NCBI GenBank assembly: GCA_020350425.1
Contig: CP070716.1
Location: 2,368,967-2,432,966 of the forward strand
Length of the DNA: 64,000 bases
DNA from: Gemmatimonadota bacterium
GTDB lineage: Bacteria > Gemmatimonadota > Gemmatimonadetes > Gemmatimonadales > GWC2-71-9
Direction of reading: 5' to 3'
Every line of letters starts with the position of its first letter. The stretch's first letter is position 1. Shown piece after piece: positions 15,242 to 45,922 of this stretch. The notes under the pieces are model-generated. The model was not told where the DNA came from. It saw only the letters and a list, made by a program, of their open reading frames with translations, and searched no databases. A program made the translations under genes and the position numbers.

Positions 15242-16198
15242 CTACGGCGAGCCCCCGGGCACGGCCGTGCCGTGACACACCGTGCACGCCTGCGGGTTGC
15301 GGCTCCGCAAACGCTCCGCATTGAAGTCGGGCCCGTGGGGGCTGACGCTCCTGTGGCAGCTCACACACGAGCTCTCCGTGTGGCATGCCACGCAGCTCTC
15401 GAGGCTCTGACGCGCCGCTTGCCCATGGCCTGCATTGAAGCTCTGTTGGCCGTCGTGGTAGCCCGTGCTCCGGATCTCGTCAGACGTCAACCCGGCCGTC
15501 TGGTGGCAGTCCTGACAGAACTGCCCGGGATTGTGGCACGAACTGCACTGGGCAGACTGGGACCACGCCTCCGCCGGGTGCGCCGCCACGTAGTCCGCCT
15601 GGTGGTAGCCGGGCGCCGGGTCGGCGCCGCCGGGCCGGTGGCAGGCGAGGCAGTCGGCCCGAACGTGACAACTGGCGCATGCCTCCGGGGCGGGGGCCGC
15701 CACCGCGGCGTGCTCCTGCACCCACAGACCGATATGCGACGCAGGCTTCGGTGCCGCCTGGTGGCACAGACTGCACGGCGACTGGGGCGCAGCCTGGTGC
15801 TCCGCTTCGATGCCGTGGCAGCTGAGGCAATTGTCGACCACTGCCCGCTGGACCGTCATGGCCGGGGCGCCCGCCGCCTGGTGACACGCCGCGCAGTCGA
15901 TTGGCGGGTGCGCCGCGTGACTGAAGTTGTCCGCCGCGTAGGCGCCCGCCGTGGGCGGTTCGTACTCCACGACGGGCTGGATCTGCCCATTGTGGCAGCC
16001 GGCGCACATGGAGGCCGCCGGGTACACGGCCCCCTCACCCGTCACGCCGGAGTGGCACATGGTGCACGATGTGAACAGGGCAGCATGCCGCTCGTGCGGG
16101 AACTGCCCTTGCGATGCGAGCTCCGGAGCCGGCGCCGGGCCCGTTCCCGCGACGGCGGCAATGACCACCCCCACGGCCAGCGTCATCATCGTCTTCAT
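15242..16198 (-). CDS. Periplasmic 12-heme cytochrome c (candidate conduit subunit)
   Basis: Protein of 318 aa with an N-terminal signal sequence and 12 CXXCH motifs, about one per 26 residues: CTMCH, CAGCH, CAACH, CLSCH, CSLCH, CASCH, CLACH, CSSCH, CQDCH, CVACH, CVSCH and CTVCH. This density is like that of the MtrA/OmaB-type cytochromes that sit inside outer-membrane barrels, although sequence identity to either cannot be judged by eye. Its ATG overlaps the stop of the beta-barrel gene (ATGA), so the two proteins are made together. There is no membrane anchor other than the signal. The likely job is to carry electrons from the periplasm into or through the barrel. Confidence 0.88.
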   Translation of the reverse strand: MKTMMTLAVGVVIAAVAGTGPAPAPELASQGQFPHERHAALFTSCTMCHSGVTGEGAVYPAASMCAGCHNGQIQPVVEYEPPTAGAYAADNFSHAAHPPIDCAACHQAAGAPAMTVQRAVVDNCLSCHGIEAEHQAAPQSPCSLCHQAAPKPASHIGLWVQEHAAVAAPAPEACASCHVRADCLACHRPGGADPAPGYHQADYVAAHPAEAWSQSAQCSSCHNPGQFCQDCHQTAGLTSDEIRSTGYHDGQQSFNAGHGQAARQSLESCVACHTESSCVSCHRSVSPHGPDFNAERLRSRNPQACTVCHGTAVPGGSP

Positions 16199-17718
16199 TT
16201 CGCGCTCCGGGCTTCAGGAATCAGGAGGATCGACGGGTGCAGCGTCGGCGTGTCCGGGCTCGACCCGAAGTAGAGCGTCAGGCCGAAGTTGAACCGCCAC
16301 TGATCCCACTTGAACGCCGCTGCGTCGGGCCGCTTCCGCTTCTCCCACAGGTAGCGGGCCTCCGCCATCACCTTGACGTCGGCCATCGGCGTGTAGTCGG
16401 CCCGCAGCCCCCCGTTCAATGCCTCCACGTCGTTGTAGCGGTATTCCATCGGTCGGGAAATCCGGCCGCCATGGGCCGTCAGCACGAGGTCCGGCAGGGG
16501 CGGCACCCACGTCGCGCGCAGGTCCCACCCGACCTGCGTGGACCCGGTGCCCTTGTCGACCCAGTAGTTGCCATCGAAGCGCCACTGCTGGATCCCCGAG
16601 TAGGTCACCCCGAACAGCCCGCGCCACCCGTCGTCCTCGACGGTGCCGAAGCGGTCGGTGGCGTTCGCATCCTCGTACTTGAAGATCTCGCCCCGGCCGC
16701 GCAGCTCGAGCCCCCGGAGGGGCCACCAGTAGACGCTCCCGAAGCCGGCGTTGTAGCCAACAGGATCGAAGGAATTCCAGATCTGCCAGAGGGGGAAGTT
16801 GGGACGATAGCGGCGCCACCCGGCGCTCGCCCGCAGGTTCCGCTTGGGGGTCGTGTAGCCCGCTGTCACGTCCGCGGTACCGACGACCGCCTGCCCGATG
16901 TCGTACTCCACGCCTCCGGTGAGCGAGATGCCGCGCTTGGGGTACCAGGCCAGGTCGAGCGCCGTGCGCTCGGCGAAGAGGTAGTTCGCCGACGAGGCGG
17001 CGTCGATCTCGCGGTGGTAAAGCCAGCGTCCCTCGAAGCCCTTGAGCCGCCATCCCAGCCCGCCGCCGAGGACGTACTGGCGCTCCGTCGGCTGGTACTG
17101 GTCGAGCGGATTTGCATACTGGCTCGTGACCACGAGCGGCGCGCCCGGGGTCATTCCCCAGCCGCCGTAGCCGAAGAGCTCGAGCCTGCGATCGAAGAGA
17201 TAGAGGTCGGCTTTGGCGCCATCCACACCGATGTAGCCGATCCGGGATGGCTCATGGAACCGGCCCAGGAGCACCGTGAGGAACTTGTTCTTGTACTCGC
17301 CGTAGGCCTCGAGCAGCTGCATCGTGGGGTCCACCGCCGGCCAGACCGTCGTCGATGACAAGTCAGTCCCGGCTCGTGCCTTGAGGCGGAAGCTCAGGCC
17401 CTGAACGCCAAGTCCCCACAGCGCCGCGTCGAGCGTGCTGACCAGCGGCGCGCCCTGCCGCTTCCCGCCCTCGGTGTAGTAGTAGCAGGTCGATGTCGCA
17501 CCCTGCCCACACCTCACGGCATAGCCGTTGTACTCCAGGCCCCCGGAGGAGTTGGTGTCGACACTCGCGAATGGGACGCTGTCGAGCTGCCAGCCCTGGT
17601 AGGCGACGGACTGGAACCAGGTGTCGAGACGGACCTGGTACCCTTGGGCGAGCGCCGGTGCCGTCCAGAGCGCCAGCGCTCCGGCAGCAACCAGCACGCG
17701 GACGAAGGACCGTTTCAT
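16195..17718 (-). CDS. Outer-membrane beta-barrel protein (candidate porin of a porin-cytochrome complex)
   Basis: Protein of 507 aa with a signal peptide cleaved near ALAQG (residue 25). The mature chain is made of alternating hydrophobic/polar stretches rich in Tyr and Trp, such as FRLKARAG, LYLFDRRLELFGYGG, RWLYHREIDA and NFGLTLYFGS. It ends close to a strand, as expected for an outer-membrane barrel of perhaps 18-20 strands. The sequence itself does not identify a substrate. Its translational coupling to a 12-heme periplasmic cytochrome parallels the MtrA/MtrB and OmaB/OmbB pairs, so an electron conduit is the best hypothesis. GGGGAGGGG lies upstream of the ATG at 17718. A -10-like TATAGT/TACTAT lies near 17750-17758. 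Confidence 0.78.
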   Translation of the reverse strand: MKRSFVRVLVAAGALALWTAPALAQGYQVRLDTWFQSVAYQGWQLDSVPFASVDTNSSGGLEYNGYAVRCGQGATSTCYYYTEGGKRQGAPLVSTLDAALWGLGVQGLSFRLKARAGTDLSSTTVWPAVDPTMQLLEAYGEYKNKFLTVLLGRFHEPSRIGYIGVDGAKADLYLFDRRLELFGYGGWGMTPGAPLVVTSQYANPLDQYQPTERQYVLGGGLGWRLKGFEGRWLYHREIDAASSANYLFAERTALDLAWYPKRGISLTGGVEYDIGQAVVGTADVTAGYTTPKRNLRASAGWRRYRPNFPLWQIWNSFDPVGYNAGFGSVYWWPLRGLELRGRGEIFKYEDANATDRFGTVEDDGWRGLFGVTYSGIQQWRFDGNYWVDKGTGSTQVGWDLRATWVPPLPDLVLTAHGGRISRPMEYRYNDVEALNGGLRADYTPMADVKVMAEARYLWEKRKRPDAAAFKWDQWRFNFGLTLYFGSSPDTPTLHPSILLIPEARSAK

Positions 17719-17867: not shown

Positions 17868-20765
17868 CTAGCGGTAGCCGAACAACATCGAGTACACGAT
17901 GAGCGCGATCAGCGTCAGCCCGACCGCCAGCGCCGTGAAGCCGAGGATGCGGAAGCCCAACTCGAGCCGGCGCGGATAGGGCTCGACGAGTTTCTCCTCG
18001 AGCTTTCCAGACGCCACCAGATCCTCGTATTCTCCCGGCTTGTCCTGCTTGAGCTCCTCGATCGGCACCCGGCCCGTGAAGATGACCGGATCCATGGGGA
18101 ACTTGTCCGGCCGGAAGTGCGTGTTGAAAAAGTGCACCGTAAAGATGAACGCCACGGCCAGCAGCGCCTCGTCACTGTGGAGGATCGTGGCCACGTTCAC
18201 CGTCCACCCAGGGATGACGCGGGTGAATAGCTCCGGGAACCAGAGCAGCAGACCCGTCGAGCCGATGATGAACATCCCCCAGAAGACGGCGAAGTAGTCG
18301 AACTTCTCCCAGTAGGTGTAGCGGCCATAGTGCGGCCGCGGCGCCTTGCCGAAGAACCACTTGATCGACTGCCAAAACTCCCTGAGGTCACGTCCGTTGA
18401 AGATGATCGAGTTCGGCGACTTGATGAACTGCACCCACGTGAGACCGGAGTCCTTCTTCTGCTTCCACGCATCCCACAGGTGGATGAGGAAGATCGTGAT
18501 GAGCGTGACTGCCCCAAGGCGGTGCAGCACTCCGGTGGTCTGGAAGCCGCCGGCCACCCGGGCAGTCAACTGCGCCCATCCCATATAGGAGAACTTCAGC
18601 ACCATCCCCGTGAGCGCCAGGGTGAAGAAGCTGAGCAGCATCACGAGGTGGAGCGTCCGCTGGAAGCTGTTGAAGCGGCGGTAGAGGCGCTCCCCGGGCT
18701 GCGCTTGGTGCTGCCGTCGCGCCTCGGGCGAGCGCATCAACCGGAACAGCCATGCCAGGGTGTGCAGCGTCGCGAACGTCAGGGTCCCCACCAGCAGCGC
18801 CGTCATGCCCCAGAACGCCCAGAACAGGAATGGGTATTTGTCGGGATCGTGGTGCGTGGCGTGAGTCAGATAACCCGTGAACCGCAGGTTCGCCCCGGCG
18901 TGGCACGCGGAGCAGGTCTCGACCACGTTGCGCCGGCTCAGGGTGGATGCCGGTTCGCTCGTGGGCAGGATGTTGTGGGTACCATGGCAGTCGTAGCACT
19001 TCGCTGCGGCCTGATCGCCCAGCCGTGACACCTTCCCGTGGAAGGTGTCGAAGAAGGTCTCCGCCTCGTCTTCGTGGCAGCGACCGCACTGGTTCATCAT
19101 GAGGAGTCGGAAGTCGCCCCGGTCCACTCGGCTGATCGTGTGCGAGGTGTGGCAGTCCTCGCAGGTGGGCAGGCGACGGTCGTCCTCGGGCTCCCCCACC
19201 TCCGGCGAGTGGATGCTGGTGTTGAACCTCTCCTCGATCCCGTGATGGCATGTGCCGCACGTGTGGGCGAGGTTCTCGGCGTGCACACTCGAATTGGGGT
19301 CGCTCGCCGGAAGCTCCCGATGCGCCGTATGGCAGTTGCTGCACGTGGCGGTCACGACGAGCCCGCTCTCGAACAGCCCCTTGCCGTGGATGCTCATCTC
19401 GTAGCTCTCCACAGGCGGCGGGAAGGCAACGGCGCGCGCCGCGGCCTCGGTCGCTTCTGGCCCCTGGGCCTCCCTCTGCTCCGTCAGGTGCGCCGATTCG
19501 ATTCGCACCGCCGCCGCCTCACCCTGCCGGTGGCATTGGGCGCACAGCGCCGGCACGTTGCGGGCGAACGTCGGCGACGTCGGGATCCGCTTGCTCTGCG
19601 TGGCGTGGTTGTCGTGGCAGTCCAGACAGACCGGCGCGTCGGGATCGCCCTCCGCGGCGAGCCGGCCGTGCATGCCGGCCGAATACTCGCCGACCTGATC
19701 CTCGTGGCACGCGGCGCAGTCCACCGGCCGGGAGATCGCGGCGCAGGGCCGCGACAGCACGGGACTGACCTCGGCATGGCACTGGGCGCACGGTGTCTCG
19801 GCGTGGCTCGAGAGCGCGTACGCCTGCTCATTCACATAGAGGGACACCGTGTCGCCCTGGGACACGCCCACCAGGTCCTCGTCAGCGTGGCAGCGCAGAC
19901 AGTTGGCGTTGGCCGAGCCCGCGTCGTAGAACACCCGCCGAATGCGGTGCGGCGCGTGACAGTCCACGCAGGCGGGGATCTGATGGGGCTGTTCCTCCCA
20001 CAGCCGCCCCTCGATGACCTGTACGTGCACCTGCTCGATCTGTGCGTGGCACTGCGTGCAGGTCGTCGCGACGTTGTTCTCGTGGATGCTCGATCGGGGG
20101 TCGGTGTGAGGCAGAATGAAATGCGACGTGTGGCACGACGTGCACACGGCCGTCACGGTGAGCCCCTGCCGGTACAGTCCCGTGCCGTGGATCGACTGGG
20201 AGTAGTTCTCGAGGATGCTGTCCTGGGGAATCTGCAGCCGCCGTGAGACCGGTGTTCCTTCCTGATGGCACTCCCCGCACAGGAACGGGATGTTCATCAC
20301 CCGGGTGGGCGATCGGGGGTCGCGATGGGACAGGATGTCGTGCGTGCCGTGGCAGTCCACACAGCTCGGGGCGAGCGGGTCGGCCCGGGCCGCCGCCTGC
20401 CCATGCAGCGAGGCGTTGTGCTCTTCGGCTTGCTGGCGGTGGCACAGGGCGCAGTCCACCGCCGGCACCTCCTCCGGATGCGGGAAGCTCAGCCCAGCAT
20501 GACACATGACGCAGGCCATCCCCGCCTGCCCGTGCGCCGAGCCGCCGAACTCCCCTTCGTCGACCACGAGCTGCGCCGCGTCGGGGCGCCCCTGGAAGAG
20601 AGCCGGGTTGGTGTGGCACATCAGGCAAGCCTGGTTGTCCTGCGCCAGGCCGAGCGTCGCCACCAGGCAAGAGGCGGCGGCGAGCAGCACGCCCCTCCCA
20701 ACCACCCGTGCCCGATGGATCCGGCTGCTCGACCGCCACCCCTGATGGCTATGCATCCACGTCAC
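17868..20765 (-). CDS. CbcL-like quinone oxidoreductase: 19-heme cytochrome c fused to membrane cytochrome b
   Basis: Protein of 965 aa. After an N-terminal signal region comes a periplasmic part with 19 CXXCH motifs (first CLMCH near residue 47, last CSACH near residue 645). Repeating units of the type S-x-H-G, CxxCHGTHDI and DPRSxxH recur through it. From about residue 665 the chain becomes a membrane cytochrome b of the FdnI/HydC/b561 type with several helices and candidate b-heme histidines in LHLVMLLSFF, VLHRLGAV, IFLIHLWD, ILHSDEALL and TVHFFNTHF. The plan matches CbcL of Geobacter, an inner-membrane quinol oxidase for extracellular electron transfer, but with roughly twice the hemes. 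GTG at 20765 or ATG at 20756 may be the start. It lies downstream of an 11-heme relative on the same strand. Confidence 0.88.
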   Translation of the reverse strand: MTWMHSHQGWRSSSRIHRARVVGRGVLLAAASCLVATLGLAQDNQACLMCHTNPALFQGRPDAAQLVVDEGEFGGSAHGQAGMACVMCHAGLSFPHPEEVPAVDCALCHRQQAEEHNASLHGQAAARADPLAPSCVDCHGTHDILSHRDPRSPTRVMNIPFLCGECHQEGTPVSRRLQIPQDSILENYSQSIHGTGLYRQGLTVTAVCTSCHTSHFILPHTDPRSSIHENNVATTCTQCHAQIEQVHVQVIEGRLWEEQPHQIPACVDCHAPHRIRRVFYDAGSANANCLRCHADEDLVGVSQGDTVSLYVNEQAYALSSHAETPCAQCHAEVSPVLSRPCAAISRPVDCAACHEDQVGEYSAGMHGRLAAEGDPDAPVCLDCHDNHATQSKRIPTSPTFARNVPALCAQCHRQGEAAAVRIESAHLTEQREAQGPEATEAAARAVAFPPPVESYEMSIHGKGLFESGLVVTATCSNCHTAHRELPASDPNSSVHAENLAHTCGTCHHGIEERFNTSIHSPEVGEPEDDRRLPTCEDCHTSHTISRVDRGDFRLLMMNQCGRCHEDEAETFFDTFHGKVSRLGDQAAAKCYDCHGTHNILPTSEPASTLSRRNVVETCSACHAGANLRFTGYLTHATHHDPDKYPFLFWAFWGMTALLVGTLTFATLHTLAWLFRLMRSPEARRQHQAQPGERLYRRFNSFQRTLHLVMLLSFFTLALTGMVLKFSYMGWAQLTARVAGGFQTTGVLHRLGAVTLITIFLIHLWDAWKQKKDSGLTWVQFIKSPNSIIFNGRDLREFWQSIKWFFGKAPRPHYGRYTYWEKFDYFAVFWGMFIIGSTGLLLWFPELFTRVIPGWTVNVATILHSDEALLAVAFIFTVHFFNTHFRPDKFPMDPVIFTGRVPIEELKQDKPGEYEDLVASGKLEEKLVEPYPRRLELGFRILGFTALAVGLTLIALIVYSMLFGYR

Positions 20766-20961: not shown

Positions 20962-22956
20962 TCACGAATCGGTGTATTGCGTCCCCCCGGACTCTGGCGC
21001 CGGGGCCCCCGGCGCATCGGCCTTGCCGGCAGCGCTCTCCGCCGGGTGGTGCGGCTCGGAGTGCGCCAGCTCGTCATCGTACCACTGCGCGTGATGGTGC
21101 TTCACGAAGTGCTCCGGCAGGCGGCCGGTGAGCCAGGCCCAGTTCATCGGATAGGCATCGGGATGCGCGATCACGAAGAACAGGTGCCACACCAGGATCG
21201 CGAGCGTCGCGAGCCACGCCTCGTAGTAGTGCACGGTCTGTGAGGCCGGCACGATCCACCACGGCAGGATCTGGACCGCCTGGACCGGGAACCAGAGCAC
21301 GAAGCCGGTGAGCGCCATGATCACCGTGCCCCACACCAGCGCCCAGTACTCGGCCTTCTGGGTGTAGTCGTACCGGCGAAAGCGCGGGTAGCGCTTGGTG
21401 CGCCAAGTGTAGTACTGCAGGTATCCCACCGCGTCGGTCGCGTCGCGCCAGTCCGGCAGCATCGCCTTGAACTCCTCCCTGCCCCGGCGCGACATCACCA
21501 CGTACAGCACGTGGCTCACGGCCTCCACGATGAGCAGCACCGCCGCGATCCGGTGCACGTTGGAGCGCACCGGCTCGTTCATGCCGAGGGCGGTGAGCCA
21601 CCGCACCCACCAGGCATCGGGGAACCGCAGCGCAAATCCAGTGACCACCAGCACAATGAACGCCGCAGCATTGAGCATGTGCTGCGTGACCTGAATGCGG
21701 TCGAGCCGCGTCACGTAGCCCACCCGCCGCTCCTCCCGCCGCCGCTCGATCAGGTAGTAGTTGAACACGACGGCATTGTGCAGCGCCATGAGCCCGATCG
21801 TCGCAGCGATCAGCACGTAGTAGAACAGGCGGATCGCGTTGTTGATCGGATTCGCGGCCATCGAGGCGGTGACGTGCGTATAGCTGGTCGCGAACGCGGC
21901 GTCGGCGTCCGGATGGCACTGCTGGCACGTGGCCGTGAGGTTTGCCGGGTGGATGGTGGACGCCGAGTCGCTCTGGGGCAGCACCGCGTGGGTGGTATGG
22001 CAGCTCACACAGGTGGCGGCGCGCGCGTAGTCGCGGCGCGTCGCCCAGCCGTGATAGCTGTCCTCATAGGTGCCGATCACGCCACCCTGCAGCCCGTACT
22101 TGGCGACGATCTCCGGATCACCGTGGCACTCGCCGCACGTCTCGGTGGCCAGGCGGGCGTCGTAGGTCCGGGCGTGGGGATCGTTGTGGGAGAGAATCAG
22201 GTGCTCCCCGTGGCAGTCCGTGCAGGTGGGGCTGTCTGCGAGGCCGGCGCGCAACGCACGGCCGTGGATGGAGGCGTCGTAGATCTCCTGGACGTCCCCG
22301 TGGCACTGGCCGCACGTGCTGGCCACGTTCACCCGGTTGATCCTGGACTGGGGATCCAGCGCCCCCCGCAGGTCGTGCACCCCGTGGCAATCCGTGCAGC
22401 GGGCGGCCTCACCCTCGCCGTTGCGGCCGTGCACCGACTGGGCGTACGACCCGTAGATCTGCGGCAGCCGGATGGCTTCCTCGGTGCGCAGGCCGGCCTC
22501 CCCGTGGCAGGCGGCGCACATCACGGGCACGTTCTCATGGTGGGTGCGGGCCTCGGGATCGGAGCTGCGCCGGATGTCGTGGCTCCCGTGGCAGGACGCG
22601 CACGTGGGGGCCGTCGCCATGCCTCGCGCCAACGCGTAGCCGTGCAGGCTGCCGCTGAACTCCCGTTCGACCGAGCCGTGGCAGCCGCCGCAATTCGGTG
22701 GCGGTGCGTCGTCGGGATGCGGGAAGCCCACGTAGCCCTGATGACACAGCACGCAGGCCATGCCGAGCGCTCCGTGCACGGAGGACCCGTACTCCTCCTC
22801 CGTGACGACCATCCGGGTGGGGTCCTCCAGGCCGGAGAACATCGCCTCGTTACCGTGGCACATGAGGCAGGCCTGGTTGCCCTGAGCCATGGCGGGTGCC
22901 GCCACAACCGACGCGAGCGCCGCGCAAAGAAGGGCTGACATCAGACGTGTCCGCAT
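20962..22956 (-). CDS. CbcL-like quinone oxidoreductase: 11-heme cytochrome c fused to membrane cytochrome b
   Basis: Protein of 664 aa. A signal peptide (about residues 1-25, AMAQG) is followed by 11 CXXCH motifs between about residues 30 and 345, with the same repeat grammar as its 19-heme neighbour (CASCHGSHDI, CTDCHGVHD, SxHG). The C-terminal half is a multi-helix cytochrome b. Candidate heme b histidines lie in LMALHNAVV, VTQHMLNAAAF, NVHRIAAVLL, VSHVLYVV, QTVHYYEAWL and WHLFFVIAH. A Pro/Ala/Glu-rich tail ends the protein. The architecture (periplasmic multiheme domain plus diheme b) is that of CbcL, which moves electrons from menaquinol to periplasmic carriers in Geobacter. The two fusions in tandem, with different heme counts, suggest two potentials or two partners. 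Confidence 0.88.
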   Translation of the reverse strand: MRTRLMSALLCAALASVVAAPAMAQGNQACLMCHGNEAMFSGLEDPTRMVVTEEEYGSSVHGALGMACVLCHQGYVGFPHPDDAPPPNCGGCHGSVEREFSGSLHGYALARGMATAPTCASCHGSHDIRRSSDPEARTHHENVPVMCAACHGEAGLRTEEAIRLPQIYGSYAQSVHGRNGEGEAARCTDCHGVHDLRGALDPQSRINRVNVASTCGQCHGDVQEIYDASIHGRALRAGLADSPTCTDCHGEHLILSHNDPHARTYDARLATETCGECHGDPEIVAKYGLQGGVIGTYEDSYHGWATRRDYARAATCVSCHTTHAVLPQSDSASTIHPANLTATCQQCHPDADAAFATSYTHVTASMAANPINNAIRLFYYVLIAATIGLMALHNAVVFNYYLIERRREERRVGYVTRLDRIQVTQHMLNAAAFIVLVVTGFALRFPDAWWVRWLTALGMNEPVRSNVHRIAAVLLIVEAVSHVLYVVMSRRGREEFKAMLPDWRDATDAVGYLQYYTWRTKRYPRFRRYDYTQKAEYWALVWGTVIMALTGFVLWFPVQAVQILPWWIVPASQTVHYYEAWLATLAILVWHLFFVIAHPDAYPMNWAWLTGRLPEHFVKHHHAQWYDDELAHSEPHHPAESAAGKADAPGAPAPESGGTQYTDS

Positions 22957-26643: not shown

Positions 26644-26726
26644 CAGCGCCCCCTCGAGCACCCCCACACCAGCAACTGTCCCACCGTCCCGCCTCCCGGC
26701 CGGGGATGCAGGACCCCGACTACCAT

Positions 26727-27536: not shown

Positions 27537-27572
27537 GATCATTCCCCCGAGCGTTGCGCACCGCCGGGCGCG

Positions 27573-28268: not shown

Positions 28269-28278
28269 GGTGTCGCTC

Positions 28279-31181: not shown

Positions 31182-31488
31182 GTGTTCATCTCCTTTTCTT
31201 GGCAAGGAGGATGCCGGACGGCGCACGGCGCCGCTTGGACTAGGTAAGTCTTTGTTCAGCTGTCACTTAAGACGATGTGCGGCGACAGGGCGCGCGCTAG
31301 GCTACTGTAGAGGATTTCTACGCTTGATTCCGGCCGGATCGCCTTCGCCCCGCATAACTCGTTGGATTGAAGTGCGTTAGCCTCGGTGGGGGATTTCTCG
31401 GCGGCCGCTGTCGAGAATATCTACAACAATCCGGTCGTCGGGTGCCGGACTCTCCGACACCCGACCCGGGGCAGTGTGGTGAGCTTCC
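31182..31488. other. 307-bp intergenic region with inverted repeat and hairpin
   Basis: No gene is recognisable here. It holds the promoter region of the GcvH-like C operon, a GTAGA-N5-TCTAC inverted repeat at 31307-31321 that could bind a dimeric regulator, and near the left end the terminator hairpin of the 22-heme gene (31437-31465). The middle contains an AT-richer patch around 31243-31272 with GTAAGTCTTTG and CACTTAAG. Confidence 0.5.
31437..31465 (-). terminator. Terminator of the ligandless-bc operon
   Basis: GTCGGGTG (31437-31444) pairs with CACCCGAC (31458-31465); an inner CGGA/TCCG extends the stem with one mismatch. It lies 24 bases past the stop of the 22-heme gene and is followed on the minus strand by a T-rich run (GATTGTTGTAG). 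Confidence 0.6.
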
Positions 31489-33486
31489 CTACCCCCCGGG
31501 GAGCGGCTCGATCTGGTGACACAGATGGCACGCCGCGGGTGCGTTGTGCTCCACCCGGTCGGCGTGGCACACCGTGCACACCTGACGCGACCATTCGGTG
31601 ATCCCCTTCGCCTTGTCGCCGTGGCACGTACTGCACTGCGAGTGCCCGAACGCGAGGGCGTGGCGGTCCTGCGCCCCGCCGCGGTGGCAGGAGAGGCAGT
31701 CGGCCTCGGGTTGGTGGTGGAAGTCGTGGCATGACACGCAGTCCACGGCTGCACCGCTCATGTTGGGTGCGGCGTGGCACATGGTGCAGGAGAGTCCCGC
31801 CTCGCGGTGCGGATCGTGCGGGAAGTCCCCGGTCTCGGTGGCCACGGGCGCCTTGGGCGCCCCGCCGGGGCATTCATGGCACTCGGCGCAGTTCTTGGCG
31901 CCGATCTGGGCGTGATGACAGCCGACGCAGTCGGACGGCGAGGTCAGCCTCGTCTTCCCGTGGTCGTCAAGCGGCGTATGGCAGCTCGTGCATTCGAGCC
32001 CGGCGTCCAGCACGTGCCGCTCGTGATCGAACGTCGCACCGCGGAAGGACAGCTCGCGGCGTTCCACGCCCAGGTGACACTGCAGGCAAACGTTCTCGCT
32101 CACCCGCGGCCCGAGATCCACCTCTGGCGCCGTGTACGGCAGGCGGCCGATGCGCACGGCATCTTCCACCAGCTCCAGGCTCGCCCGCAGCAGCTCGTCG
32201 GCGTAGGCGATGTTGTGTGCTCCCTTGCCCCGCTCGACGAAGTCCAGATTTCCACGGGCAAGGCCGAGCAGCGAGTCCACCTGCACGCGCACCCGCACCG
32301 GGGCCGAGCCGGCGGCCCGGGTCGCCCCCTCCACTACGCGCTTCGTGAGGCCCAGCTTGCGGTCCATCTCCTGCTGCCACGACGGGAGGATGTTGGCGTA
32401 GCGGATGCCGTGGCACGAGAGGCAAGACGCCTCCCCCGCGAAGCGTACCGACTCGTGCGCGCTCACGTTGCGCGGCAGCTCGTGGCACCCGGTGCACGAG
32501 ACCCGTGCGAGGAACATGGAGCTGGGCACATCGTCGGCCCCGTGCCCGCCGATTCCTGCGTAGAGCTGCTGCTGCGCCTCGTGCACCCGCCGGTGGCACG
32601 CCGCACAATCAAGCTCCGCCGTCTCCTTGAGAGAGAAGAGCCGGTGCACGATTTCGGCGTGGCACTGCGTGCACTCCACGTTGTGCTCGGCGATGTGCAC
32701 CCGGTGGACCAGGGTCGTGTTCTCGAACTCCTCGATACGCTCCGGCCGATTGTGGCACGTCCAACAGCGTTGCTCGTCGGCCTCGCCCGTGCCGCGGGTC
32801 ACCTCCTCGTGGCACGACACGCAGGAGACGAGGTCCTCGACGTACTGCTCGTGGTCCACCACGAACCCCGCCGGCGACACCACGCGCGGCGGCGAGGTGT
32901 GGCACGCGACGCAGCCGGTCGCGACCTCCTCGGCTTCGGCCGCCTTGAAGTGACACAGATTGCACGTGGTCTGCGTGACCGCGAGGTGCTCGCCTTGCAC
33001 GATCTGGGAATGACACGAGGTACAGCGCAGCTGCTTGCCGCGGCGTAGCTCGCCCAAGTGCTGGGTGTGGTCGAACCGCACCCCCATGTAATTCACCACG
33101 CCCTCGACCTTGCGGAGCGAGTGGCACCCCGAGCGCAGGCAGGCGGCGTCCTCGATCTCGGCCCACGGCTTCGTGCCGTAGGCTCCCGTCACGTAGCGCA
33201 CCACCTGATTGGCCGCCTGGAACTTGCCCATGGCTTCCGCTTTGATGCCTGGGGCGTAGTGGCACTTGATGCACGGGACGTCGTTGTGCGTGGAGGTCGC
33301 CCAGGAATCGTAGTAGGGCTGCATGATGTGGCAGTTCGTGCAGAACCCCGGCTGAGCGCTGTACTCGACGAACCCCACCGTGCCGATGGCTGCCAGGATC
33401 ACGGCGAGCACGCTCACCTGCACGGCGATCTTCAGCGGCCGCGAGAGGCGCTCGAACCGCTGCTTCACAGATCCCGTCTCGGCCAT
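31489..33486 (-). CDS. NapC/NirT-anchored large multiheme cytochrome c (21 CXXCH plus one CX4CH)
   Basis: Protein of 665 aa. An N-terminal membrane helix (about residues 20-40) leads into the NapC/NirT signature CTNCHIMQPYYDSW, followed by THNDVPCIKCHYAPG. I then count motifs along the whole chain to a total of 21 CXXCH, with an additional CLRSGCH (CX4CH) as the third site. NapC-type domains oxidise quinol and pass electrons to periplasmic hemes. Here the domain is extended into a very long heme wire, interrupted by one heme-free helical stretch at about residues 345-435. It is the last gene of a four-gene operon, one base after the 9-heme gene. A role as periplasmic wire fed by the neighbouring cytochrome b or directly by quinol is inferred. 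Confidence 0.9.
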   Translation of the reverse strand: MAETGSVKQRFERLSRPLKIAVQVSVLAVILAAIGTVGFVEYSAQPGFCTNCHIMQPYYDSWATSTHNDVPCIKCHYAPGIKAEAMGKFQAANQVVRYVTGAYGTKPWAEIEDAACLRSGCHSLRKVEGVVNYMGVRFDHTQHLGELRRGKQLRCTSCHSQIVQGEHLAVTQTTCNLCHFKAAEAEEVATGCVACHTSPPRVVSPAGFVVDHEQYVEDLVSCVSCHEEVTRGTGEADEQRCWTCHNRPERIEEFENTTLVHRVHIAEHNVECTQCHAEIVHRLFSLKETAELDCAACHRRVHEAQQQLYAGIGGHGADDVPSSMFLARVSCTGCHELPRNVSAHESVRFAGEASCLSCHGIRYANILPSWQQEMDRKLGLTKRVVEGATRAAGSAPVRVRVQVDSLLGLARGNLDFVERGKGAHNIAYADELLRASLELVEDAVRIGRLPYTAPEVDLGPRVSENVCLQCHLGVERRELSFRGATFDHERHVLDAGLECTSCHTPLDDHGKTRLTSPSDCVGCHHAQIGAKNCAECHECPGGAPKAPVATETGDFPHDPHREAGLSCTMCHAAPNMSGAAVDCVSCHDFHHQPEADCLSCHRGGAQDRHALAFGHSQCSTCHGDKAKGITEWSRQVCTVCHADRVEHNAPAACHLCHQIEPLPGG

Positions 33487-33487
33487 C

Positions 33488-34720
33488 CTAAGGCTGCTCC
33501 TCCCGCAGCTTGAACCAGGCGAGGACGATCACCGCGAGCGTGAGGAACCACACCGGAATAAGCAGGAGCTTGTGCTCCCACTGCTCCTCGGCGTGCACCT
33601 CCGCGGTCGCTCGGATGATCCCCGTATTCGACCGCACGGCGAGGCCCAAGTCCTCCAGCCGCTCGAAGTTCAGGCTGTGTTGTACGAGGGCGATCTGATT
33701 GTATTCCGAGACGGCACTCTGGTAGCGGAACCGCTCGTCGGCCACCTCGTGCCCCATCTCCACCATCTCCTCGATCGCATCGGCCGCGTAATGCAGCTCC
33801 TCGGTGGCACGCAGCACTTCCTCCTGCAGCTCCACCCCCATGAGCGCGGGAGCGCTCTCGGGCTCGTGGCACCGAACGCACAGGGCCGCGATCGCCTCGG
33901 GTGCCGTGCGTTCCGTGCCGTGGTTGCTGTGGCATCCGAGGCAGCCAGGCAGTGTCCCGCTGCGGGCCGGTCCCCCGTGAGGACCCTGGTAGAACGCCCG
34001 CTCGAGGAGCAGGTGGCACCGGCCACACACGTCCGCGATCTGCGTGACCGCCGGCGGCAGCGCCGCGTGGGAGCCATGGCACCCGATGCACGTCGGCGAG
34101 GCGAAGTTGCGCTTCTCGAATACGCCGATGCCGTGCGCCCCGGTGCGATAGCGCTCGTACTGGTCGATCGGCTCGCCGTACTTCGCCATGAGCTGCGCAT
34201 CCTCGTGACACCTCCCGCAGGTGGCCGGGATGTTCGTGGGGTGGACCTCGCTGCGGGCGTCCTCAGGTGGCAGGATCAGGTGGGCGTTGTGGCAGTCGGT
34301 GCAGGTGGGCGCGTCGGTGTTGCCCTGCTCGAGCAGCAGCTGCCCGTGGCGGCTCGTGCGGAACTCGGCGAGCTGATCGGCCGCCAATCCGAATTGCCGC
34401 ATCTGGTTGGGGTCGGCGTGGCACACGCTGCACAGCTCGATGATCTCCAACTTGGTGGGCGTCCCCAGGAAGCGCCCCCGGTGGGCCGGGTCGATTTCGT
34501 ACGCGGTCGGGTCGCCACCGTGGCAGTCGTCGCACCTGATGCCGTAGTCCGAATGCACCCCGAGGGTGAACGAACGCCGCTTGTCCGCGTGGCAGATGAT
34601 GCAGCCGTACGCCGAGTCATCCTGGGCCGCGAGTCCCTGCGGCGCCCAACCGGTAGTCGGAGCGGCGGGCGCGGCTCCCACCAGGAGCGCTGCCCCCAGC
34701 GCGAGGAGCGTCCCAGTCAT
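33488..34720 (-). CDS. 9-heme periplasmic cytochrome c with C-terminal membrane anchor (module A)
   Basis: Protein of 410 aa with a signal sequence at the N terminus and nine CXXCH motifs (CIICH, CDDCH, CSVCH, CTDCH, CGRCH, CIGCH, CGRCH, CLGCH, CVRCH) in the first 280 residues. A helical segment follows, and one transmembrane helix near residues 383-403 ends in a short basic tail. The plan is the same as that of the 9-heme protein at 40016-41284, and individual repeats align (CTDCHNAH with PPEDARSEVHPTNI, versus CLSCHPAH with PPSDPLSSVHPVNV). Its ATG overlaps the stop of the cytochrome b gene. It probably replaces cytochrome c1/f as the electron acceptor of the bc-type complex. Confidence 0.88.
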   Translation of the reverse strand: MTGTLLALGAALLVGAAPAAPTTGWAPQGLAAQDDSAYGCIICHADKRRSFTLGVHSDYGIRCDDCHGGDPTAYEIDPAHRGRFLGTPTKLEIIELCSVCHADPNQMRQFGLAADQLAEFRTSRHGQLLLEQGNTDAPTCTDCHNAHLILPPEDARSEVHPTNIPATCGRCHEDAQLMAKYGEPIDQYERYRTGAHGIGVFEKRNFASPTCIGCHGSHAALPPAVTQIADVCGRCHLLLERAFYQGPHGGPARSGTLPGCLGCHSNHGTERTAPEAIAALCVRCHEPESAPALMGVELQEEVLRATEELHYAADAIEEMVEMGHEVADERFRYQSAVSEYNQIALVQHSLNFERLEDLGLAVRSNTGIIRATAEVHAEEQWEHKLLLIPVWFLTLAVIVLAWFKLREEQP

Positions 34721-36063
34721 GGCGTGTTCCCCCTCTCCCCGGCAGCGCTGTCACTCGGGACCGCCGGCCGCGCCGGCCCGACCCGCGGCAGCGGAGCAGC
34801 TCTCTCGCCCGGCACCACCCGCTCTTGGCGCGCCTCCTGTCCGATGCCCTCCGAGGGAGGCAGCGACCCAATGCCACGCCCCACAAGCCACAACACGACG
34901 AAGCCACCGAAGAACAGCAGCCCCAGCACTGCGACGACGGGTCGCTTGCGGATGCGGCGCTCCGGACCGCGGTCGAACAGAGGCAGGAGCACCAGGCTCA
35001 CGCCCAACAGCGTGAAGACGATGAACCCCCAAATCCCGAGGTAGCGAAGCAGGGCCAGCGACACGTCCACCGGCACCCAGGTGGAGACGAGCTCGTGCGG
35101 CACGACGAGCGGATTCGCCGGCGGTCCGAACGGCCGGGGGTACAGCACCGCCAGCGTCACGGCGATCGCCAGCACCAGCACCGTCACGCTCAACGACCGC
35201 AGCAGGTGCGTGGGGAAGAACCGCACGCCTTGTTGGCTCCCGTCGTCGGCGCTCTGGTGCTGCTGCGGGTTCGGCGCGCCGCGGCGGCGTCGGCCGACGG
35301 ATTGCTCTTCGACGTGCACCGGCGGCGCGATGCCGCGTCGGCGCACCAGCGTGAAGTGGTACGACAGCAGCGCCAACGAGACCCAGGGCAGCACGATCAC
35401 GTGGATCGAGAAGAAGCGGCTGAGCGTCGCGCCCGACACGATCACATCGCCCATGAGCGTGTCCGCGATCAGGCCGCCGACCAGTGGAAAGCCCGAGATC
35501 GCCACGAGCACCTCGGTCACGGTCCAATACGCCCACTGGTCCCAGGGCAGCAGGTATCCGGTGGCCCCGAACGCGAGGATCACTCCCAGGAGCAGCAGGC
35601 CGATGGTCCAGTTGGTCTCCCGCGGGGGCTTGTACGCCGCCTCGAGCAACACCCGTGCCATGTGCGCCAGGACGGCGACAACGATCAGGCTGGCCGACCA
35701 AACATGGAGATCCCGGATGAGCCACCCGAAGGAGACGTTACTCACGATGTGCTGCGTGCTGGGGTAGGCCTCCTGCACGGAGGGCCGGTAATAGAGCGCC
35801 ATCAGCACGCCCGTGACCACCAAGATCATGAACAGGACGTAGGTGATGCCCCCGAACATCTGCCGCCAGCCCACGTGCGGATCGAGCCGGTAGCCCAGCA
35901 TCTTGCGCAGCGCCTCGTCGATTCGCAGGCGGCGGTCGATCGGCCCGTACAGCAGCCCCAGGAACCGCGCCCCGCCCAACAGGCCAGCGTCGGTGCTCTC
36001 CTTGATGTCCACCCAGGTTTGGGAGAACCACGATTTGGCTGCGTACCACGCTCGGCGGATCAT
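34717..36063 (-). CDS. Cytochrome b of a bc-type complex lacking the PEWY motif (module A)
   Basis: Protein of 448 aa with about eight membrane helices. All four b-heme histidines are present with canonical spacing: His120 and His134 (13 between), and His221 and His236 (14 between). The conserved GATGYLLPWDQWAYW (residues 166-180) is also there. In the subunit-IV half the quinol-oxidation motif PEWY is missing: the aligned segment reads ELVSTWVPVD (STWV at 327-330). A linker of about 30 polar residues precedes this half, and a Pro-rich tail of about 60 residues ends the protein. It is encoded directly after a Rieske-like gene that has lost its cluster ligands. Bifurcated quinol oxidation at a normal Qo site is therefore unlikely. 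Confidence 0.88.
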   Translation of the reverse strand: MIRRAWYAAKSWFSQTWVDIKESTDAGLLGGARFLGLLYGPIDRRLRIDEALRKMLGYRLDPHVGWRQMFGGITYVLFMILVVTGVLMALYYRPSVQEAYPSTQHIVSNVSFGWLIRDLHVWSASLIVVAVLAHMARVLLEAAYKPPRETNWTIGLLLLGVILAFGATGYLLPWDQWAYWTVTEVLVAISGFPLVGGLIADTLMGDVIVSGATLSRFFSIHVIVLPWVSLALLSYHFTLVRRRGIAPPVHVEEQSVGRRRRGAPNPQQHQSADDGSQQGVRFFPTHLLRSLSVTVLVLAIAVTLAVLYPRPFGPPANPLVVPHELVSTWVPVDVSLALLRYLGIWGFIVFTLLGVSLVLLPLFDRGPERRIRKRPVVAVLGLLFFGGFVVLWLVGRGIGSLPPSEGIGQEARQERVVPGERAAPLPRVGPARPAVPSDSAAGERGNTP

Positions 36064-36064
36064 C

Positions 36065-36526
36065 CTAGCGCTCCGTCACGTACACCGCACCGTCCCGCAC
36101 GAACACTCCGTAGCGGGCGAGCGGCGCGGTCGTGAGACCGGTCACGACGTTACCGTGGAGATCGTACACCACGTAGGAACAGGGGGAGTACACGCGCAAC
36201 GATGCCTCATCCCACTCCAGGATACAGTCGTCGCTCGGCGAGACGCCCTGCAGGGCGAAGTACTCGGCGGCGTTGGCGCGCACCACCAGGATCGCCCGCT
36301 CTCCCCAACGCACCAGCCGGCTGGCGCCCACCGGGAAGTCGGCCTCCCGCACCACGCGGTAGGCCGGCTGGATTTCGGGGATCTCGAGGTGCCCTGCGGG
36401 GAGGACGTAGAGCCCGATGCTCAGCGCGATCGTCGCGAGAATCAACGTGACGACCCCGCCGAGCAGCAGGTCGTTGACCCCGATGCCGGAGCCCTTCCCG
36501 TCGACCCGCCCTTCCGTCACACTCAC
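36065..36526 (-). CDS. Rieske-fold protein that has lost all four [2Fe-2S] ligands (module A)
   Basis: Protein of 153 aa with one N-terminal membrane helix (about residues 20-42) and a C-terminal Rieske-like domain. It aligns with the intact Rieske at 39524-40006, for example YDLHGNVVTGLTTAPLARYG against [20 protein letters not shown]. Box I, CTHLAC in the intact protein, is SPSDDC here; box II, CACH, is SPCS. The four ligands Cys, His, Cys, His are all serine (96, 98, 114, 117), while both disulfide cysteines (Cys101 and Cys116) remain. The fold should survive without a cluster. GTG at 36526 is preferred, as GAGGAG lies six bases upstream. It is followed after one base by the PEWY-less cytochrome b gene. 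Confidence 0.85.
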   Translation of the reverse strand: MSVTEGRVDGKGSGIGVNDLLLGGVVTLILATIALSIGLYVLPAGHLEIPEIQPAYRVVREADFPVGASRLVRWGERAILVVRANAAEYFALQGVSPSDDCILEWDEASLRVYSPCSYVVYDLHGNVVTGLTTAPLARYGVFVRDGAVYVTER

Positions 36527-36608
36527 ACGCTTCTCCTCGACGCGTCCTGGACAACGACTTACGGTGCTATTGTCGTCCAACAGTCGCACCGCCGGCGCCG
36601 ATGTGCAA

Positions 36609-38259: not shown

Positions 38260-38361
38260 CACGATCTCCTCCCCCGCTTTGTTGACGATCACGTCCCGAA
38301 GAGTCTCAAGACCCTGCTACTATTAATTGCAGCGGAAAAGTCGCGCAATAGAGGCCACCCA

Positions 38362-38424: not shown

Positions 38425-39522
38425 TCAGATGGCTGGATCGGCCGTGTATCCGAGATAGGTCAGCAGGAGCACGTAGAGGATCATTACCAGCCCGATCCAG
38501 GTGAACAGCGGGCTCCGCTCGCCGCGAGCTGAGCGCCGGTCCAACACGGGGATCAGCAGCAGGAACACTCCGGCCAGGCCGAACCCGAGAATGCCAACGA
38601 TCTCGCCCTCGATCCCGAGGATGTGCGCCGGCAAGTACTTCAGCGTCTGGAACATGAACATGAAGTACCACTCCGGCTTGATCCCAGCTGGCGCGGGCGC
38701 GAACGGGTCGGCCTCCTCGCCGAGGTGGGCGGGGAAGAACGCCGCCAGCGCAGCCAGCACGGCCAGCGCGACGAGCCAGCCGACCAGGTCACGCAGCAGG
38801 AAGTTCGGGAAGAACGGCATCCGTCCCCGGCTTCCGCCACCCTGTTGCACGTCGAGCGGCACGCTCATCCCCTGCTTCTGCACCAGGAACAGGTGCAGCC
38901 CCAGGAAGAACACGGCGCACAGTGGGAGCACCGCGACGTGAATCGCGTAGAACCGCGTGAGCGTGGCACCGGTCACGTCGTCGCCGCCCCGCAGCAACCG
39001 CAGCATGAAGTCGCCCACCAGGGGCACCGCCCCCATGATCTCGGTGCCCACCCGCGTCGCGAAATAGGCCAGCTCGTTCCACGGCAGCAGGTAACCGGTG
39101 AAGCCGAACGTCACCGCCAGCCCGAGCAGCCCCACACCCGTGTACCACGTGAGCTCGCGCGGCGGCCGATAGGCCTTGAGTAGCAGGACGCTGAACATGT
39201 GAATGAACAGCGCGAAGATCATCAGGTTGGCGGACCACGAGTGGATCGATCGCACGAGCCACCCGAACTCCACCTCGGCCATGAGGAACTGCACCGACTC
39301 GTAGGCCTGCTCGGCGGTGGGCCGGTAGTAGAACAGCAGCAGGATACCGGTCGTCACCTGCACCACGAACAGGAACAGCGTCATGCCGCCCAGGTAGTAC
39401 CACAGGGTGTGACGATGAACCGGTACGTCCTTCTTCTTGGCCACCGCCGTGAAGGCGTCGAACCCGATGCGGTCATCGAGCCAGCGCCACGACCGATGCC
39501 ACCACGCTCGCACTCGTGTCAC
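38425..39522 (-). CDS. Canonical cytochrome b (b6/subunit IV fusion) with PEWY (module B)
   Basis: Protein of 365 aa with about eight membrane helices. The heme b histidines lie in [20 protein letters not shown] and [39 protein letters not shown] forms the Qo-side loop. The Qo motif is intact: [19 protein letters not shown]. This is therefore a working quinol-cytochrome c oxidoreductase subunit. It follows the intact Rieske gene by one base and is the last gene of the module B operon. Compared with the paralogue at 34717-36063 it lacks the long polar linker and the Pro-rich tail. Confidence 0.94.
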
Positions 39523-39523
39523 G

Positions 39524-40006
39524 TCAGGCTCCCCGGCTCACGACAATCTGGTCACCCCGCACGTTCACCTCGTACTGCTCGAGGGGCGCCGGGGGCGGGC
39601 CCTGGATGTTGCGCCCATTCAGGTCGAAGTGGCCGTTGTGGCAGGCGCACCAGATGTGGCCGATATCGTCCCGGTACTGCACGATGCAGGCCAGGTGGGT
39701 GCACGCCGCCGAGAACGCCCGAAACTCGCCGGACGGCGTGCGGACGAGGATGCCCGGACGGCTGCCGAACTTGAAGATCTCCGCACTGTTGGGCGGCACG
39801 TCGTTGGGCCCGAACGGGAGGGTCACCGTCGCCGCCGTGGACTCGGCGGCCGCCGGCGGCACGAGATAGCGCCCCGCCGGGTAGAAGATCGCGAGGATGA
39901 GCCCTCCGACGCTCGTGCTCAGCAACCACGTCGTGAGCGTCCTGCTCAAGACCCAATCCACGAAACGCCTGCGTGACGTCGCCTGCGGTGTCCCCGTCTC
40001 AGCCAT
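39524..40006 (-). CDS. Rieske [2Fe-2S] protein of the bc complex (module B)
   Basis: Protein of 160 aa with an N-terminal membrane helix (about residues 26-46) and a complete Rieske cluster-binding domain: box I CTHLAC and box [11 protein letters not shown], giving Cys, His, Cys and His ligands and the disulfide pair. The terminal pattern [12 protein letters not shown] is typical. It accepts one electron from quinol at the Qo site of the cytochrome b encoded one base downstream and passes it to the periplasmic cytochrome, here probably the 9-heme protein encoded upstream. It is the intact reference against which the ligandless paralogue at 36065-36526 can be read. Confidence 0.95.
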
Positions 40007-40015
40007 CGCTATTCC

Positions 40016-41284
40016 TCACGTCTCCGTCACCGTCGCCCGGTAGTCGACCTCTCTGATCTTGAGGAGGAGCCCCGCGATGAGCGCCAGGATGATCACCACG
40101 GATACCGCCAGCCCGGTGCGCCGGAAGCGGAGCTCGTTCATGGCGTCTTCGCCGCGCGCAAACGCCCGCACGGCCACCTCCAGCCCATCCGTCACCTCGG
40201 CGCCCACGATCTCCCTGTCGAACGAGTGCACCGCCGCGCGGGCCGTGACCAGCGCATCGTTGGCACCGCCCAACTCGAACAGCGCCTGGCTCACCTCCAT
40301 GCCGTGGTTCTCGGCCGCGCCGAGGAGCGAGTCGGCGGCGTGATAGGCGGCCTGGAGCGAGTCGATCATGCTCCGCATCGCGAGCGCGGTCTCACCGCCC
40401 CGGTCTCCAGGCGCGTGGCACCGCGCGCACACCGCCCCCTCATCGAGGCCCAGCATGTCGTCGGCCGGCCGCGTCACCTCGTGGTTCTGGTGACACGTGG
40501 CGCAGCCGGGGACGCCCAGCATCGTGAACGTCGTGGCGTGCCGGCTCTCCTCGTAGTAGTCGGCCATGACGCTGTGGCATTGCCCGCACACGTTGCCCAC
40601 CCAGGAGATCCCCGGCGGGGTCGCGCCGTGGTTCCCGTGACAGTCGTTGCATGTCGGCGCCGAGAGGTCCCCCTGCTCCGACAGCGCCGCCCAGTGGACG
40701 CTGCGCTCGTATTTCTCGCGCTGGTCGGTGGGGATGCCGTACGGCTTCATGTGGTCGGCGTCACCGTGGCAGGCCGCGCACGTCGCGGCGACGTTCACCG
40801 GGTGCACGCTCGACAGCGGATCGGACGGTGGCCGGACGTTGTGCGCGGGATGGCAGCTCAGACACGTGGCGACCGCCGTGTCGCCGAGCTCGAGCAGCCG
40901 CCTCCCATGAACGGACGTGGCATACTCCGTGACCTGGTCCACCCGCAGCGATGGGTTGTAGCGTCGCATGAAGTCCGCGTCCGAATGGCACCGGCCGCAG
41001 ACGTCGAGCACCTGCCGGCCGCGGGGCCGGCCCACGAACCCGAGCTCGCGCGCCATGCCACCCATCCCCGCGATCGAGGCGTCACCACCGTGGCACGCCA
41101 CGCAGCCGAATCCCTTCTCGGCGTGGATGTCCCGCTGAAACGCCTCCACCGGGGCGGCGAGCCGCCCTCCCAACGCCGAGTGGCACGTGACGCAGTTGTT
41201 CTCCTGCGCCTGCGCGCCGCCCGCCGCGCCGGTGAGCCCGACCAACCAGATGAATGCCGCGATCCCTACTCGCTGCCTGCCCAT
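40016..41284 (-). CDS. 9-heme periplasmic cytochrome c with C-terminal membrane anchor (module B)
   Basis: Protein of 422 aa. ATG at 41284 shares one base with the stop of the upstream gene (TAATG) and gives a clear signal peptide (residues 1-28, AQAQE). Nine CXXCH motifs (CVTCH, CVACH, CGRCH, CLSCH, CAACH, CNDCH, CGQCH, CATCH, CARCH) are followed by a long helical segment and one C-terminal membrane helix (about 392-412). It is a paralogue of the module A protein at 33488-34720 with the same repeat order. It lies directly before Rieske and cytochrome b, so it likely takes the place of cytochrome c1 or f. Confidence 0.88.
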   Translation of the reverse strand: MGRQRVGIAAFIWLVGLTGAAGGAQAQENNCVTCHSALGGRLAAPVEAFQRDIHAEKGFGCVACHGGDASIAGMGGMARELGFVGRPRGRQVLDVCGRCHSDADFMRRYNPSLRVDQVTEYATSVHGRRLLELGDTAVATCLSCHPAHNVRPPSDPLSSVHPVNVAATCAACHGDADHMKPYGIPTDQREKYERSVHWAALSEQGDLSAPTCNDCHGNHGATPPGISWVGNVCGQCHSVMADYYEESRHATTFTMLGVPGCATCHQNHEVTRPADDMLGLDEGAVCARCHAPGDRGGETALAMRSMIDSLQAAYHAADSLLGAAENHGMEVSQALFELGGANDALVTARAAVHSFDREIVGAEVTDGLEVAVRAFARGEDAMNELRFRRTGLAVSVVIILALIAGLLLKIREVDYRATVTET

Positions 41285-44223: not shown

Positions 44224-44225
44224 CG

Positions 44226-45769: not shown

Positions 45770-45922
45770 GCGAATCCCCCCCATCGGGATCGGTGCGCAC
45801 GGTCGGTTCGGCAATCCCGACCGCAAGATTCCGTCAACCTTGGGGGTCGAGCGTGAAGAAATCATGAAGTCACCGCGAACGGCGGGGCAGCACGACCGAA
45901 TCCGCGCTCGCGGACAGCACCT

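Follow-up and report, generated by a model that had tools for sequence, protein, structure and literature searches.

Loss of the Rieske cluster ligands and the PEWY motif in a conserved Gemmatimonadota operon, a probable non-bifurcating quinone:multiheme-cytochrome c oxidoreductase

Can a complex of the cytochrome b6f type lose both the Rieske cluster and the PEWY motif of its quinol oxidation (Qo) site, two features considered to define Q-cycle enzymes of the bc type, and still be maintained by selection? The question is raised by an operon in a 64,000-nucleotide stretch of a Gemmatimonadota genome (contig CP070716.1, positions 2,368,967 to 2,432,966; hereafter the window). Four genes, described as an operon in an earlier note made from the sequence alone, lie head to tail on the minus strand at 31489-36526, and all four open reading frames (ORFs) were confirmed there. 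They encode RskD, CytbD, MH9D and MH22D, collectively the D unit, after which the D loci and the D clade are named (Table 1). All homologues have lost the high-potential branch, consisting of PEWY and the ligands of the Rieske [2Fe-2S] cluster, and both b-heme sites and the Rieske fold are kept. The D unit probably encodes a quinone:multiheme-cytochrome c oxidoreductase that does not bifurcate, arose from a Rieske/cytochrome b complex of the b6f type and is used for extracellular electron transfer. The gene order RskD-CytbD-MH9D-MH22D is kept in loci with enough flanking sequence, CytbD and MH9D overlap by an ATGA-type junction (-4) in nearly all loci, and the other gaps range from -11 to +19 bases; to judge from this layout, the D unit is translationally coupled. 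The ORF of RskD extends to 36589 (36065-36589), and homologues begin near 36526, which makes the GTG there a plausible start.

RskD has a Rieske fold without the ligands of a Rieske cluster. Its profile aligned over the whole domain with the Rieske chain of cytochrome b6f (PDB 8hn2; HMMER, E 4e-15) and matched the intact Rieske protein of the window (HHalign, 98.9%, E 3e-17). In the AlphaFold2 model, residues 38-62 form a transmembrane (TM) helix and the Rieske domain reaches a pLDDT of 96-98 over most of its length; a Foldseek search with RskD ranked Rieske proteins first, the best being 8hn2 (TM-score 0.79 by target length) and the second Kuste4569. None of 33 RskD homologues retains the C-x-H...C-x-x-H cluster ligands. 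The position of the first cysteine ligand is occupied by Ser in 28 homologues, Ala in four and Gly in one, that of the second by Ser in all 33, and both histidine positions are variable, with His at the second in a single homologue. The two disulfide cysteines, Cys122 in loop 1 and Cys137 in loop 2, are retained in 33/33 homologues, the disulfide itself being predicted, and of the 13 invariant columns the former cluster loops hold seven (D120, C122, L124, W126, S135, P136 and C137). The simplest inference is that the RskD face that would dock on cytochrome b is still selected even though the cluster is gone. A mere NirD-like domain was ruled out, given that b6f-type Rieske proteins are its closest matches by profile and by fold and that neither disulfide cysteine has been lost, and chance was ruled out as the source of the ligandless pattern, which is kept in 33 distinct homologues.

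CytbD exceeds the cut-offs for PF00033 (E 2e-46), PF13631 and PF00032 and matches cytochrome b6 in the PDB (E 8e-69), and AlphaFold2 and Foldseek also point to cytochrome b. Its heme histidines are H120, H134, H221 and H236, with spacings of 14 and 15 residues; the first pair is conserved in 34/34 rows of the homologue alignment and the second in all 33 complete rows. Around the PEWY motif, P0006, the sister protein, has IKPEWYFMF, and the corresponding residues of CytbD are LVSTWVPVD. An alignment artefact was ruled out, since profile-profile alignment and a large MAFFT alignment gave the identical answer. Neither PEWY nor an equivalent is present in any of the 33 CytbD homologues, most of which have STW[VI] at this position, with ALWF, ILWF or ALGF/ALGI in the deepest branch. 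The ligandless Rieske protein and the cytochrome b with four heme histidines and STWV in place of PEWY, both claimed in the earlier note, are thus upheld. CytbD homologues retain the b6-type cd loop PWDQ..YW almost without variation, and therefore a p-side quinone pocket may remain. According to PMC9162462, every cytochrome bc complex has a Qo motif, which varies systematically, and the D clade does not fit this described universality.

The other two subunits are multiheme cytochromes, and no cytochrome c1 or f subunit was found in the D unit. MH9D has nine CxxCH motifs, a number constant in 28/28 homologues, and besides the nine motif histidines exactly nine others are invariant. The 22 heme motifs of MH22D comprise 21 CxxCH and one CX4CH (CLRSGCH), with 22 motif histidines and 22 other invariant ones; the number is constant in most complete homologues, and a few have 17-24 CxxCH. 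These counts agree with the anchored nine-heme cytochrome and the NapC-type cytochrome with 22 motifs first noted at the locus, and the ratios of 9+9 and 22+22 fit a predicted full bis-histidine ligation in both proteins. MH22D begins with an N-terminal TM helix and a head that exceeds the PF03264 cut-off (36.1 vs 24.1 bits) and matches NrfH (2j7a) over residues 15-76. This region carries CxxCHxM and an invariant Lys88, and the first heme may have Met55 as a ligand, as in NrfH. The third heme motif of the head is an invariant CX4CH instead of CxxCH, namely CLRSGCH, or CTREGCH in the deep branch. The D unit therefore has two candidate quinone sites, one in cytochrome b and one in the NapC-like head of MH22D.

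The distribution of the D unit was surveyed in 395 Gemmatimonadota genomes from 138 genera. A search with CytbD set 26 genomes, at 54-70% identity, apart from other cytochromes b, at about 30-46%. An independent search with the RskD profile found 27/395 genomes in 20/138 genera, with best E-values of 1e-72 to 1e-44 and no further match in the 395 genomes up to E 1e-20; the 27th genome, G311, lies beyond the CytbD set and carries RskD right at a contig end. The operon is thus conserved in related genomes, and neither of the two findings that the earlier note had named as refuting, PEWY or an equivalent in a correct alignment and absence of the operon from relatives, was obtained. The named orthologous loci belong to Gemmatimonadota metagenome-assembled genomes, except for one labelled 'uncultured bacterium'. 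The patterns for scanning genome contigs came from a single sequence, so that distant relatives outside Gemmatimonadota may be missed, and no relative of the D unit was found on viral contigs. The distribution is patchy, the D unit being absent from two further genomes of the genus to which the window belongs. Nei-Gojobori dN/dS values in close pairs are 0.06-0.20 for RskD, 0.05-0.19 for CytbD and 0.08-0.36 for MH9D, and 0.05-0.24 in nearly all close pairs of D-unit proteins. The D unit is under purifying selection, and these values rule out a pseudogene.

An operon for an intact complex, complex A, lies just upstream of the D unit in the direction of transcription. Identities between the two are 26% for RskD and RskA, 37% for CytbD and CytbA, and 33% for MH9D and MH9A. 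Complex A is found in 17/26 D genomes and is missing, for example, from G199, a 93%-complete genome on one contig; because G199 has the D unit without complex A, the former is independent of the latter. Completion of the D unit by an intact Rieske protein encoded elsewhere was ruled out: within 3-4 kb of cytochrome b, an intact Rieske motif was seen in only 2/33 non-window loci, and both belong to complex A. On a cytochrome b tree (333 columns, LG+C20), the D group forms one clade with support of 100/100 and a long stem, and the tree supports no particular sister group for it. The other Gemmatimonadota cytochromes b compared have PEWY, PEWF, PDWY or APWY where the motif is covered (the C-terminal part of L095 did not align), and an intact Rieske motif adjoins each examined non-D cytochrome b locus with enough flank. 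The loss of the ligands and the loss of PEWY are confined together to one clade and therefore coincide; most simply, both would have occurred once and early. Two minor observations concern the other cytochromes b. A separate Gemmatimonadota clade (L093, L097, L098, L100, L063 and L106) has KAPWY for PEWY, with an intact Rieske protein beside it, and the Planctomycetota proteins L088 and L089 have PEWY but apparently 2/4 heme histidines (HYHI), which may be an alignment effect.

The D unit is real, conserved and unusual, and it is a variant of the Rieske/cytochrome b complexes, not a member by strict definition, because it was tested for the defining features (cluster ligands, PEWY and cytochrome c1 or f) and has none of them. 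The earlier note knew of no described complex of this kind. The combination is new: a literature search, which was not complete, found no published description of it, and a text search for degenerate Rieske proteins in bc complexes gave no match. However, only the combination is new, as Rieske/cytochrome b complexes with multiheme cytochromes c (PMC12954380, PMC4683180) and the CbcL, ImcH and CbcBA systems (PMC12307469) had already been described; the nearest relatives or analogues are the Kuenenia complexes and Geobacter CbcBA and CbcL. The Kuenenia stuttgartiensis complexes (Kuste4569-4574 and Kustd1480-1485) likewise contain a b6f-like cytochrome b and a hexa- or octaheme cytochrome c that replaces cytochrome f, but their Rieske protein holds a [2Fe-2S] cluster with a potential above +300 mV and they include an NAD(P) oxidoreductase (PMC12954380), whereas the D unit has lost the cluster ligands and PEWY and has no NAD(P) module. 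With cytochrome b6f (PetB/PetD/PetC) the D unit shares the 14/15 histidine spacing, the PWDQ..YW cd loop, the subunit-IV-like part and an anchored Rieske fold with disulfide cysteines; it differs in having no cluster ligands, PEWY or cytochrome f, with multiheme subunits in their stead.

Geobacter CbcL, ImcH, CbcBA and Cbc3-Cbc6 resemble the D unit in passing electrons from quinone to multiheme cytochromes c at the inner membrane and feeding outer-membrane conduits (PMC12307469, PMC11434368). ImcH and MH22D both have a head of the NapC/NirT type, and the likeness of CbcBA, CbcW and CbcV to the D unit is drawn from their description. We know of no described Geobacter-type member that combines a cluster-free Rieske protein with a bc-type cytochrome b. 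CytbD also resembles ExtP of the ExtNOPQ-type operon for selenite and tellurite reduction (NCBIfam; E 7e-59), but it scores under the family cut-off (199 vs 290 bits), and no D-unit subunit matched the iron-sulfur (FeS) protein ExtO of NCBIfam. In anaerobic methanotrophic (ANME) archaea, the methanophenazine:cytochrome c oxidoreductase Mco has a cytochrome b next to a cytochrome with 7-11 hemes and is proposed to act in extracellular electron transfer; its cytochrome b, however, is of the VhtC hydrogenase type, not the bc type, and no Rieske protein is described for it (PMC9012536). A Methanoperedens cluster with two pentaheme cytochromes also links a bc-type complex to multiheme cytochromes c, but is described with a Rieske iron-sulfur protein and a c1/f-like cytochrome (PMC4683180). 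The D unit differs from Alternative complex III, which combines NrfD-like membrane subunits with FeS and multiheme subunits, as none of the four D-unit proteins matches NrfD (Pfam); NrfD/FeS modules lie elsewhere in the window.

In the mechanism of bc1 and b6f complexes, bifurcation as known cannot operate without the Rieske acceptor and the PEWY glutamate. That the D complex has lost Qo-site bifurcation is strongly implied, since Qo is left without a high-potential one-electron acceptor. The claim that bifurcation had been abandoned stands to this extent, with the reservation that the NapC/NrfH-like head of MH22D could be a separate quinol site. From these features we infer an activity, an electron path, its outward direction and a structural role for RskD. 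Both electrons of menaquinol would pass one after another through cytochrome b, the NapC/NrfH-like head of MH22D, or both, then into the chain of nine-heme and 22-heme cytochromes, and would reach an acceptor outside the cell by way of cytochromes in the periplasm and the outer membrane, in a reaction that may also run inward. The cluster-free Rieske domain would stay docked in a structural role, as a cap that gives the p-side quinone pocket its shape or supports the multiheme subunit. Several points weigh against this proposal. Direct transfer from the b hemes to multiheme cytochrome c is a proposal drawn from sequence; the letters do not tell which way the electrons flow; the porin assignment near the D unit (Table 1) is based on the lack of TM segments and on gene position, not on a family match; and heme-copper oxidase genes are present in the window's genome alongside the intact sister complex, so that the respiratory context is not exclusively extracellular.

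Two rival explanations are serious. Electrons from outside, supplied by Fe(II), a partner cell or reduced minerals, could flow inward through the multiheme chain and the two b hemes to quinone near the cytoplasmic side and build proton-motive force. With the high-potential Rieske branch lost, no high-potential acceptor would be needed; by textbook Q-loop logic a transmembrane wire of b hemes conserves energy in this direction only; and CbcBA is proposed to run in reverse in Seep-SRB2 (PMC10553843). No marker of lithotrophic electron uptake turned up, though no search was aimed at such markers, and inward flow is considered unlikely. Somewhat less probable again is oxidation of quinol solely at the head of MH22D, as in CymA, NrfH and ImcH, with cytochrome b and RskD as a redox-silent or regulatory scaffold: the PF03264 score, the NrfH match, CxxCHxM and Lys88 speak for it, but a silent scaffold would not need invariant heme-b histidines or a cytochrome b as constrained as the rest, and the third heme motif of the head is CX4CH, not CxxCH. 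A more doubtful proposal is that the emptied Rieske fold has been repurposed, either for bifurcation in which a redox-active disulfide or c heme is the high-potential acceptor, or for a push, driven by proton-motive force through the b hemes, of quinol electrons onto low-potential extracellular wires; to our knowledge, neither mechanism has been described for bc complexes. Persistence of bifurcation with another high-potential Qo acceptor, a c heme of MH9D or a Cys122-Cys137 redox couple, is highly improbable when taken by itself. Both cysteines and their surrounding loop are invariant with no cluster to hold, and the Qo cd loop is kept, but the catalytic glutamate of PEWY is gone, the disulfide is also a structural element of ordinary Rieske proteins, and we know of no precedent. 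The location of the D unit beside an intact PEWY/Rieske operon with homologous subunits might suggest a decaying paralogue, a reading rendered extremely improbable by one ancient clade with a long stem, intact ORFs, low dN/dS, conservation in 27 genomes and occurrence without complex A in G199.

Of these readings, the non-bifurcating quinone:multiheme-cytochrome c oxidoreductase would, if correct, mean that Gemmatimonadota, frequent inhabitants of soils and sediments, have a distinct point of entry to extracellular electron transfer at the inner membrane. The D clade is under selection, spans several families of the phylum, and has lost the cluster and PEWY but kept the heme-b sites, the Rieske fold and the disulfide cysteines; as such it is a natural experiment that can separate the parts serving bifurcation from those serving assembly.

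Table 1. Features of the D unit, complex A and the neighbouring cytochrome genes in the window.
Feature	Position	Strand	Basis
RskD, membrane-anchored Rieske-fold protein without cluster ligands	36065..36526	-	HMM, HHalign, AlphaFold2, Foldseek
Former cluster loop 1, SPSDDCILEW	36212..36241	-	Column counts in 33 homologues, alignment to 8hn2
Former cluster loop 2, YSPCSY	36173..36190	-	Column counts in 33 homologues, alignment to 8hn2
CytbD, b6f-type cytochrome b fused to subunit-IV-like domain, 8 hydrophobic segments	34717..36063	-	Pfam, PDB, AlphaFold2, Foldseek
STWV replacing the PEWY Qo motif in CytbD	35074..35085	-	Homologue columns, MAFFT, profile-profile alignment
MH9D, 9-heme cytochrome c, signal-like N-terminus, C-terminal TM anchor	33488..34720	-	Heme motif count, invariant His
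MH22D, N-terminally anchored NapC/NrfH-like cytochrome, 21 CxxCH + 1 CX4CH	31489..33486	-	PF03264, NrfH 2j7a
Complex A cytochrome b with KPEWY (comparison, outside the D unit)	38425..39522	-	Homologue alignment
Complex A intact Rieske protein, CTHLAC...CACH	39524..40006	-	Sequence motif
Complex A 9-heme cytochrome, MH9D homologue	40016..41284	-	33% identity, E 2e-62
CbcL-like fusion, 11 CxxCH + b561-type cytochrome b, possible redox partner	20962..22956	-	ORF survey, neighbourhood comparison
CbcL-like fusion, 19 CxxCH + b561-type cytochrome b	17868..20765	-	ORF survey, neighbourhood comparison
Putative outer-membrane beta-barrel, signal-like N-terminus	16195..17718	-	No other hydrophobic TM segment, gene position
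12-heme secreted cytochrome beside putative porin; porin-cytochrome conduit candidate	15242..16198	-	Neighbourhood comparison

The CbcL-like fusions, the putative barrel and the 12-heme cytochrome all lie downstream of the D unit in the window. The barrel has no Pfam or NCBIfam match and has orthologues in nine distinct D loci, and orthologues of the putative porin-cytochrome and multiheme/b561 modules adjoin the D unit in several genomes. Directly downstream of the D unit, three GcvH-like proteins (26727-27542, 27573-28316 and 30492-31226, minus strand) flank an NrfD/FeS pair. Their lipoyl-lysine position is Ala, Gly and Arg by eye, never Lys, and they look like putative cofactor-free adaptors; the GcvH-like/NrfD/FeS set also adjoins the D unit in L035, and one GcvH-like protein does so in L077.

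At the end of the cytochrome island, 23639-26667 on the minus strand encodes an NtrC-like regulator and a sensor histidine kinase whose sensor part carries CxxCH, suggesting possible redox control. A protein with 14 CxxCH motifs at the window edge (288-2426, minus strand) had no phmmer match among the ORFs of related loci. Between the D and A operons lies a nine-heme lipoprotein-like cytochrome (36694-38292, minus strand), which adjoins the D unit in many genomes with 8-9 CxxCH motifs. A module of NrfD, a TtrB/DsrO-like FeS protein and an eight-heme cytochrome (43030-45865, minus strand) is conserved beside complex A or the D unit in several genomes.

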